Shown: positions 35,767 to 62,598 of the stretch, in pieces
Numbering within the stretch: position 1 is the first letter of the stretch
Layout of the letters: every line of letters starts with the position of its first letter
Assembly (NCBI RefSeq): GCF_000621865.1
Contig: NZ_JHXE01000015.1
Span: 1 to 64,000, forward strand
Length of the DNA stretch: 64,000 nucleotides
Source: Pseudobutyrivibrio sp. MD2005
Lineage (GTDB): Bacteria > Bacillota > Clostridia > Lachnospirales > Lachnospiraceae
Direction of reading: 5' to 3'
Notes under the pieces: generated by a model
Seen by the model: the letters and a program-made list of their open reading frames with translations, nothing else
Databases searched by the model: none
Told to the model about the DNA's origin: nothing
Translations under genes and position numbers: made by a program

Positions 35767-35861
35767 AAAGATATTAGGATATAAATTATAAATAGCATTT
35801 GTAGGTAACAAGCTATTATATTTATAAATTAGCCCATAAAATAAGGAATATAGATGAGCAA

Positions 35862-35941
35862 CTGTATCAGACAAGCTCTAATATTTATTTGCGAGACATT
35901 CTAGTCGAGCAAGTAAATGATTAGGCTTGTATGTGTAACAG
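35862..35941 (+). ncRNA. recurrent leader RNA motif, copy A (before cysS)
   Basis: Outer stem CTGT/ACAG, then ACAAGC/GCTTGT, a variable stem (CTAAT, TTTA, TTGC with GCAA, TAAA, ATTAG), and the apical loop GCGAGACATTCTAGTCGAGC. The 3' strand after GCTTGT reads ATGTGTAAC. Same architecture before pgk, tpiA and purB. It ends 16 bases before the cysS ribosome site, so it lies in the mRNA leader. Confidence 0.75.
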
Positions 35942-35968
35942 ATGCGGACTAAGACTAGGAGAATTAAT

Positions 35969-37806: not shown

Positions 37807-37862
37807 TTATAGAAAGAGTAAGCTAGTAGTCGTAACTAGCGTAGTTTATAGAAAGAGTAAGG
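37805..37862 (+). repeat. reduced leader-motif scar with direct repeats
   Basis: TTATAGAAAGAGTAAG occurs twice (about 37807 and 37848). Between them AAGCTAGTAGTCGTAACTAGCG looks like the outer helix of the tpiA leader copy (CTAGT...GTAACTAGCG) with the inner stems removed. Confidence 0.45.
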
Positions 37863-37952
37863 TTTATAGTTGACAATTACATAGGCTCTTTTTTGAGAGT
37901 ATAGTGAAAACGATGAAAAAAAGATTCTATGTAATTGTTGATGTAACAAACC
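37861..37952 (+). ncRNA. diverged relative of the leader motif (before rlmB)
   Basis: Outer stem GGTTT/AAACC, a perfect inner stem CAATTACATAG/CTATGTAATTG, an upper stem CTTTTTT/AAAAAAAG, and a 3' strand TTGATGTAAC. The layout follows the cysS, pgk, tpiA and purB leaders, but the apical GAGACAT..GTCGA consensus is not kept. It may be a distant variant or an independent structure. Confidence 0.4.
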
Positions 37953-53138: not shown

Positions 53139-53248
53139 AAAAATTGTCTATTTGCCCATCTGCTTCGTTATGTTTCGCTCGCAGTACATAGTACAGCGTC
53201 GCTTACATTCCTTGCATATGGCCAAATATCCTAATTTTTGGATTTCTA

Positions 53249-53298: not shown

Positions 53299-53384
53299 GC
53301 CTGTAGCTATCAAGCTCTCGGTGTTGCGCAGCGAGACATTTTAGTCGAGCAGGGCAATATCCGAGGCTTGAGAGTGTAACAGGC
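53299..53384 (+). ncRNA. recurrent leader RNA motif, copy B (before pgk)
   Basis: Outer stem GCCTGT/ACAGGC, then TCAAGC/GCTTGA, a variable stem (CTCGG...TTGC with GCAA...CCGAG), the apical GCGAGACATTTTAGTCGAGC, and the 3' strand GAGTGTAAC. Stem bases differ from copies A, C and D while pairing is kept. It ends 14 bases before the pgk ribosome site. Confidence 0.8.
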
Positions 53385-54673: not shown

Positions 54674-54785
54674 GAGAATTGAACAAGCTAGTAGACAACA
54701 AGCTCTTAGATCTTTTGCGCGAGACATTCTAGTCGAGCGAAAAGATACTAAGGCTTGTAGGCGTAACTAGCGAAGTTCTATTCTC
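54674..54785 (+). ncRNA. recurrent leader RNA motif, copy C (before tpiA)
   Basis: The best-developed copy. Stems from outside in: GAGAATTGAAC/GTTCTATTCTC (one mismatch), GCTAGT/ACTAGC, ACAAGC/GCTTGT, CTTAG..TCTTTTGC/GCGAAAAGA..CTAAG, and the apical GAGACATTCTAGTCGA. The 3' strand reads AGGCGTAAC. It ends 7-8 bases before AAAGGAGAG, the tpiA ribosome site, so folding could affect translation. No terminator separates pgk from it. Confidence 0.85.
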
Positions 54786-62350: not shown

Positions 62351-62362
62351 AATCCGCTAATT

Positions 62363-62501
62363 TGTTACGCCATCGTAGTTTGTTATGCTCCCGTAGGGCA
62401 CCTTCCATACCTTCGCCCGGGTCCTCCCGCCGGCGTAGGCCCTCCCGGGCTCGGCATGGTGCCTCCCTACTCGCGCTTGCCTAGTTTATGTTGGCGTAAC
62501 A
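62363..62501. repeat. GC-rich nested palindrome between purF and purB
   Basis: A 139-bp element with perfect 10-bp terminal inverted repeats (TGTTACGCCA, TGGCGTAACA), an inner pair GGGCACC/GGTGCC and a central GCCCGGG/CCCGGGC (62415-62421, 62444-62450). It is far more GC-rich than its surroundings. It resembles a REP- or MITE-like palindromic repeat and sits directly before leader motif copy D. Confidence 0.65.
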
Positions 62502-62508
62502 TGAATTA

Positions 62509-62598
62509 GCCATACGTAGCAATCAAGCTCTGAAAAGTACTCAAGCGAGACATGTTGTCGAGCGGAGTATTTTCAGGCTTGTAAGCGTAACGTATGGC
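62509..62598 (+). ncRNA. recurrent leader RNA motif, copy D (before purB)
   Basis: Outer stem GCCATACGT/ACGTATGGC (9 bp), then TCAAGC/GCTTGT, a variable stem CTGAAAAGTACTC/GAGTATTTTCAG, the apical GCGAGACATGTTGTCGAGC, and the 3' strand AAGCGTAAC. It ends about 18 bases before the purB ribosome site. Confidence 0.85.

Follow-up and report, generated by a model that had tools for sequence, protein, structure and literature searches.

The four look-alike hairpins that precede cysS, pgk, tpiA and purB in the window (the whole 64,000-nucleotide stretch of Pseudobutyrivibrio sp. MD2005 DNA analysed here) are most probably copies of a mobile hairpin repeat that is non-autonomous and specific to the genus, and that behaves much like REP/BIME or MITE repeats. 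A dispersed mobile repeat is preferred over a ligand-sensing regulon because of the copy number, the mixed downstream genes, the antisense copies, the variable presence at orthologous gaps, the nesting of copies and the relocation of their cores.

Hairpins of the window

The copies were collected with a covariance model built from five of them, called R1. The relevant features of the window are the following.

35860-35943, + strand: copy in the cysS leader or intercistronic gap; R1 89.7 bits, Pfam tRNA-synt_1e downstream, fold z −5.5
53299-53384, + strand: copy in the pgk leader; R1 86.8 bits, Pfam PGK downstream, fold z −7.0
54687-54771, + strand: copy in the pgk-tpiA gap, the originally flagged locus; R1 100.8 bits, Pfam TIM downstream, fold z −5.7
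62512-62595, + strand: copy in the purB leader; R1 79.5 bits, Pfam Lyase_1 downstream, fold z −8.5
37862-37951, + strand: diverged copy in the rlmB leader; R1 24.6 bits, E 1.7e-4
37822-37840, + strand: near-empty outer stem GCTAGT..ACTAGC with the core gone, by direct reading; R1 12.8 bits, E 0.59 (weak)
35793-35835, + strand: probable 5'-half remnant upstream of the cysS copy, with the 5'-half motif at 35801-35814, by direct reading
62360-62501, − strand: second, antisense place in the purB gap, by direct sequence reading

The four leaders singled out in the preliminary description are all recovered, on the + strand and with slightly shifted borders, as hairpins of 84-86 nt. The GT/AC pair closing the outer stem, given there for three of the four, is real and holds for every one of them. 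Only five places in the MD2005 genome have the exact apex GCGAGACAT..GTCGAGC, and other copies vary it. The fifth of these same-apex copies lies on another contig, ahead of an acyl-CoA dehydrogenase gene; the gene upstream of it encodes a 3-hydroxyacyl-CoA dehydrogenase and itself has its own copy.

The earlier view that the hairpins belong to no known RNA class also holds, with no Rfam match at gathering thresholds in the window. The same search, run on 9 of the 20 syntenic stretches from relatives, gave no match in any of the 9. At E ≤ 10 the five loci gave 11 matches, none covering a copy; an IS009 match that overlaps the last 18 nt of the tpiA copy (18.8 bits vs a gathering threshold of 117, E 0.85) is taken as chance.

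The diverged copy at 37862-37951 has retained its outer stem, with the tip swapped for another hairpin (GAGAGTATAGTGAAAACGATG), and the gene that follows is RlmB according to a TIGR00186 match above cut-off. The short element at 37822-37840 is probably an internally deleted copy. At 62360-62501, the outer stem resembles that of the relatives' copies and encloses, in our reading, a different GC-rich hairpin module.

Structure and covariation

Read from the outside in, the hairpin has first P1, in which GT/AC closes four variable base pairs. An A/GUA internal loop comes next, then a variable stem of 3 bp, often with a mismatch after it, and then CAAGC/GCUUG and one bulged U. A further variable stem (ca 10-12 bp) leads to a GC pair step and a tandem G.A/A.G step, and the tip is a 3-bp stem whose loop varies. 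The non-helical features, that is, the apical tandem G.A step, the A/GUA loop and the U bulge, are conserved. GTA(G/A) sits at the foot of the inner hairpin, and the GT of columns 5 and 6 pairs as G-C and U-A in 52 of 54 copies, with C-G pairs in the other two.

The copies before cysS, pgk, tpiA, purB and the acyl-CoA dehydrogenase gene were found to be more stable than their shuffles, with z from −5.5 to −8.5 and none of 200 shuffles as stable in any case. RNAalifold on these five gives 33 pairs, 17 of which have a compensatory change in at least one copy. The calculation was extended to 54 of the 55 copies of the MD2005 genome, the internally deleted L088 being omitted. In this structure-free MAFFT alignment 90.7% of cells pair, compared to 70.0% for shuffled and 28-40% for slid versions, although collection by a covariance model biases the set toward paired copies. 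Changes on both sides occur at 29 of the 33 pairs, and the covariation score is 0.524 (0.159 shuffled, with 0/500 shuffles reaching it; at most 0.099 slid). One pair, of columns 34 and 57, fails in 44 of the 54 copies and is to be dropped from the structure.

The pairing of P1 was counted in those 131 of 162 copies that have both sequence anchors. With sequence as the only anchor, each of the four outer pairs is seen in 97-99% of the copies (41-64% shuffled), and 43 different arm triplets are found in the outer stem. These results confirm the covariation of the variable stems claimed earlier, which holds with more copies in both the 54-copy and the 131-copy tests. The stem pairing may be kept by selection, or the stems may in part be rewritten by template switching (see below).

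Copy number and distribution

The MD2005 genome contains at least 55 R1 copies (150 of 365 candidates scored). Beyond these, there is one more copy adjoining another copy, as well as the much diverged one at 37862-37951 of the window. In a 99-genome sample, R1 matches 27 of the 29 Pseudobutyrivibrio genomes, MD2005 included, and none of the 70 from outside the genus. The two genomes of the genus without a match are G007 and G021, and G004 gave 5 matches; these assemblies are 82-86% complete. A wider draw from the Lachnospiraceae, in which the 11 best candidates per genome were scored, gave matches in 2 of 397 genomes, both Pseudobutyrivibrio, and none in the 395 from outside the genus.

We have also considered the apex as a sequence pattern, which matched at least 112 stretches of named genomes. 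Among the matches listed, R1 confirms all 68 that come from Pseudobutyrivibrio or Butyrivibrio fibrisolvens 16/4 and none of the 44 from other organisms, recurring Rokubacteria and Olsenella among them, so that these 44 are chance matches of a short pattern. R1 likewise matches none of three viral contigs with the apex pattern. The tpiA copy had no match in a phage collection and the pgk copy none in a plasmid collection. The set of 162 copies was obtained by merging 168 R1 matches and stands apart from 32 later ones in named genomes. Among the papers listed by our literature searches, none dealt with such repeats in Pseudobutyrivibrio, and the text of a paper on the genus (PMC8627218) does not contain repeat, intergenic, non-coding, transpos or palindrom.

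Position and orientation relative to genes

Of the 55 own-genome copies, 39 are sense, 14 antisense and 2 ambiguous, in a division made by hand in which L050, L053 and L055 (sense frames lacking a Shine-Dalgarno sequence) are counted as antisense. From the end of a sense copy to the start codon there are 10-84 nt (median 28; at most 40 nt in 28 of 39), and in 37 cases a Shine-Dalgarno sequence lies between stem and start codon. The antisense ones lie 3-27 nt past the stop codon of an opposite-strand gene, with one at 82. Both groups have a short gap on their 3' side (median 28 nt sense, 18.5 nt antisense) and a longer one on their 5' side (75 and 145.5 nt). The polarity of the repeat is thus fixed, its 3' end facing the nearby coding sequence. 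Head-to-head pairs agree with this: the 55 copies include three (−,+) pairs, at distances of 25, 63 and 266 bp, and within 1000 bp there is no (+,−) pair. A fourth (−,+) pair in the MD2005 genome is 24 bp apart, and more were found in other species.

Gaps between same-direction genes hold 39 sense vs 4 antisense copies (6 by a cruder count), and for all but one of the sense copies the upstream gene is called in the same direction. Antisense copies more often have a stem extension of at least 3 bp (7/14 vs 7/39), an A-run of at least 4 before the stem, which is a T-run on the other strand (8/14 vs 2/39), and a T-run of at least 4 after it (4/14 vs 1/39). At the RNA level, the sense copies would form a stable leader or intercistronic hairpin with the Shine-Dalgarno sequence downstream of the stem. 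The antisense copies would place its complement just past a stop codon, and several appear to be built into terminator-like stems. The hairpin may in this way affect mRNA stability or termination.

All 39 proteins encoded after sense copies were scanned with Pfam, 36 of them as the first 300 residues at most, and 6 have no match at 1e-8. CysS, Pgk and TpiA are among those identified. The others, for which the finer names are our own assignment, are presumably a sugar kinase, a 2-hydroxyacid dehydrogenase, an ABC ATPase, glutamine synthetase III, a Gfo/Idh/MocA oxidoreductase, ScpA, TusA, OMP decarboxylase, PolC, a thiamine-diphosphate enzyme, a BadF-type ATPase and Obg. We further take to be present an aldolase-type protein, an HMGL-like protein, an NAD-dependent epimerase, a Der-type GTPase, PurE, a translational GTPase, a CbiA-type protein, a SpoU methylase and a cyclophilin. 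To these we would add a glycosyltransferase, a LeuD-type protein, AddB, TatD, a PurN-type protein, a class I tRNA synthetase, a PurB-type lyase, and 3-hydroxyacyl-CoA and acyl-CoA dehydrogenases. The genes are functionally mixed, with no uniting pathway. Those right after the 39 sense copies look ordinary as regards transposases, integrases, nucleases and helicases.

The suggestion that the hairpins form a leader class of growth genes responding to a growth-linked ligand is not supported by these data, with at least 55 copies, mixed genes and 14/55 antisense; variable presence at orthologs, nesting and relocation (see below) speak against it too. Linked genes behind consistently sense copies, as in a riboswitch or leader regulon, are not what the Pfam list and the orientations give. 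The copies do lie mainly in 5' leaders, as had been assumed, with 39 of 55 preceding start codons, yet 14 are antisense after stops.

Orthologous gaps, nesting and core exchange

The copy in the pgk-tpiA gap is missing at most orthologous gaps. TpiA is 96-100% identical in 25 of the 26 genomes with a tpiA match (75% in G021), and R1 is found upstream of tpiA at 2 of these 26 loci, MD2005 and G012; two of the loci, L113 and L114, end early at contig ends. The tpiA-upstream gaps printed in readable orientation are in some cases bare and in others occupied by other hairpins. Among 10 syntenic relatives, a sense copy is present at the orthologous gap of cysS in 2, of pgk in 4, of tpiA in 1 and of purB in 1.

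The rlmB gap is empty in 4 of the 10 relatives (stop codon, AT, start codon) and holds an R1-matched hairpin in the other 6, mostly with the same flanks and with differing P1 and core. A hairpin of the repeat kind is held at this place in 7 of 11 genomes despite its changing sequence, which counts against a purely mobile repeat.

Seven of the 162 copies are nested within another copy, three of these in the MD2005 genome. At L059 (MD2005), an outer stem and an outer CAAGC/GCTTG enclose a complete inner copy, flanks of its own included, and L052 (MD2005) has, in our reading, three concentric layers. In G003, the tips of two different outer copies each hold a further unit (L138, L139); these two units share their P1, and their cores are 98.6% identical. 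At pgk, the outer stem and flanks are common to G025 and G003, and the tip in G003 is a whole second copy.

Cores are also found to change place. L177 and L220, from two Pseudobutyrivibrio assemblies, each have two copies that face each other. Compared crosswise, the cores are 97% and 94.5% identical; the outer flanks stay with the place, and at one of the places so does P1. In the purB gap, the core of the MD2005 leader is 98.6% identical to a core in L199 that lies at the other, antisense place and has another P1. Gene conversion between copies explains both cases, and insertion into the tip would do so too.

Even where the cores of two copies are 93-99% identical, their outer stems show differences of whole compensated pairs. 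For elements of 75-92 nt with cores at least 0.93 identical, P1 differs at 1.33 of 8 bases in 12 same-place pairs and at 3.00 of 8 in 14 different-place pairs, with labels that are partly wrong: 'same place' here means flank similarity, which wrongly takes in own_L045/L199, L177/L220 (twice) and own_L058/own_L063 and is doubtful for L156/L189. Stems can also travel with the unit, since they are identical in 3 of the 14 different-place pairs. The numeric case for stems staying with the place is weak.

At the DNA level, the repeat would be one that has spread to gene borders with a fixed polarity, and its copies nest inside other copies. Its inner part would have been swapped between places, probably via recombination between copies or insertion into hairpin tips.

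Mobilising machinery

We now turn to the question of what moves the repeat, which we infer to spread by a transposase-like process. The Y1 transposase (PF01797), integron integrases and reverse transcriptases have no match in the MD2005 genome, and these three were rejected as resident mobilisers. Within the genus, PF01797 is found in 10 of 29 genomes, being absent from MD2005 and 18 others, and a reverse transcriptase in 14 of 29. The integron integrase TIGR02249 is above cut-off in none of the 29 and below it in two, neither of them MD2005. That no mobilising enzyme of these three kinds was found in MD2005 counts against the mobile-repeat reading. A by-eye comparison of empty and filled sites gave no clean target-site duplication.

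Another option considered was an autonomous parent with separated halves. The 3'-half pattern occurs at 52 places in the MD2005 genome (one for the reversed control), 45 of them within listed copies. Of the other seven, C2:50943, C5:87298, C5:87337 and C5:170421 directly follow a listed copy and are parts of outer layers, and at C11:5722 there is a copy whose tip has been replaced. The last two are C14:46240, which adjoins the end of the hbd gene, and C2:87519. With 50 of the 52 motifs in or beside copies and no distant split copy seen, this candidate was discarded.

One can speculate about a hairpin-borne system, in which hairpins or their tips enter the tips of other hairpins to give palindromes of two to three layers, and in which many places keep their outer stems while inner cores from several unrelated families replace one another. 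The driver would be a machinery that recognises folded single strands, distinct from RAYT, integron integrase and reverse transcriptase. We regard this picture as speculative and rather doubtful.

Comparison with known repeats and alternative explanations

MITEs and small mobile repeats of the RU/ERIC type are non-autonomous, intergenic, palindromic and able to enter mRNAs. The present repeat is like them in all these respects and differs in that no partner transposon or target duplication was identified for it. Integron attC sites are folded, with variable sequence and unpaired bases, and in this they resemble the repeat; however, the 29 genomes have no integron integrase above cut-off. The attC core boxes, as we take them to be, do not match the repeat.

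The resemblance to REP, BIME and REPIN elements extends to dispersed intergenic hairpins in tens of copies or more, head-to-head pairs, and a GTAG-like tetranucleotide at the foot. It is therefore natural to ask whether this is a true GTAG-tagged REP family, spread by a RAYT transposase that MD2005 has since lost. The GTA(G/A) at the foot of the inner hairpin, the head-to-head pairs and the intergenic location next to unrelated genes speak for it. However, in the part of PMC3733652 drawn on here, REPs are repeats of 20-40 bp located downstream of coding regions, with stems of 5-13 bp and a tag not involved in pairing. The present repeat is 85 nt long, lies mostly upstream of start codons and has ca 33 pairs, and its GT is paired with AC in 52/54 copies and otherwise in two. 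Y1_Tnp is absent from MD2005 and 18 others of the 29 genomes (10/29 have one), and the same part of PMC3733652 lists GTAG repeats for Proteobacteria, Cyanobacteria, Chloroflexi and the PVC group, whereas the present host belongs to the Lachnospiraceae of the Bacillota. A true REP family is thus very improbable, and the repeat is not filed as REP because it lacks the unpaired tag, the short stem and the resident RAYT; its behaviour, head-to-head dimers included, is REP-like. The MRSC elements of a 50-genome ncRNA survey (for example MRSC-65-2) are similar by their description in the section of PMC11109978 used here, namely a single long covarying stem, dozens of copies and inconsistent orientation, as in the 55 copies here (39 sense to 14 antisense). 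According to the same section they are often near transposase, integrase, nuclease or helicase genes, whereas no transposase neighbour was seen here among the genes after the 39 sense copies, the repeat is confined to one genus in our samples, and it has a strong start-codon bias.

The sense bias and the nearness to start codons exceed what neutral scattering would give and would also fit a selected leader function. A cis-regulatory RNA class expanded in one genus, that is, a riboswitch or protein-binding leader by which a shared ligand or protein sets many genes, would account for both, as well as for the covariation at 29/33 pairs, the conserved tandem G.A step, A/GUA loop and U bulge, and the hairpin retained at rlmB. 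We nevertheless consider it improbable, with 14/55 copies antisense after stop codons, genes of no common pathway, presence that differs between close species, nesting, and a T-run of at least 4 after the stem in just 1 of 39 leaders. Covariation, for its part, could be mostly mutational, replication template switching (quasi-palindrome correction) rewriting the stems so that pairing says little about RNA function. Such switching can create and maintain hairpins, according to the part of PMC8794818 relied on here, and the whole compensated pair differences in outer stems between copies with 93-99% identical cores are in line with it. However, the unpaired core features are conserved too, which template switching alone would not keep, and we therefore see this as a possible but unlikely main cause.

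For the mobile repeat favoured here, mobility alone does not explain the sense bias. Insertion may be targeted to ribosome-binding regions, or copies located in these regions may be retained as useful. The latter seems more likely to us, the copies before a ribosome-binding site being kept, for example, for shielding an intercistronic mRNA end.

The results call for caution in RNA-motif discovery, as multi-copy covariation ahead of housekeeping genes can stem from a mobile hairpin family. The genus offers natural empty sites, nested copies and apparent core exchange for testing the RAYT-free spread of palindromes, and also allows a direct test of the use of palindromic repeats as leaders and terminators.

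Other modules in the same gaps

Several other elements were observed. A GC-rich module of the GGCGGGAGGACC type is found inside outer stems of the repeat at ca 62395-62480 of the window (− strand), at 1695-1960 of L055 and in L111, and also in the pgk-tpiA gap of G004. A palindromic module, GCAGTAC..TAGTACAGC, occupies intergenic gaps at ca 53160-53235 of the window, in L104 and in L114, as well as the pgk or tpiA gaps of G020, G013, G002, G003, G005 and G022; it occurs as well in G021, a genome that R1 does not match. Yet another repeat, of the type CATCCCTACTTAGATGG..GAGCG(C/A)AAGCGTGTC, lies in the pgk-tpiA gaps of G002, G003, G006, G008, G011, G013, G014 and G022.

Arrays of 3' ends (NNGTAACNNGCGGACTT, with a spacing of ca 22 nt) follow a copy at 1870-1960 of L055, in own_L038 and in L035, and look like several outer layers minus their 5' halves. 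Finally, two copies in L207 (235-378 and 3372-3516) have their tips replaced by one and the same unrelated longer hairpin, and a tip related to this replacement (GAGAGTATAGTGAAAACGATG) is found at 37895 of the window.
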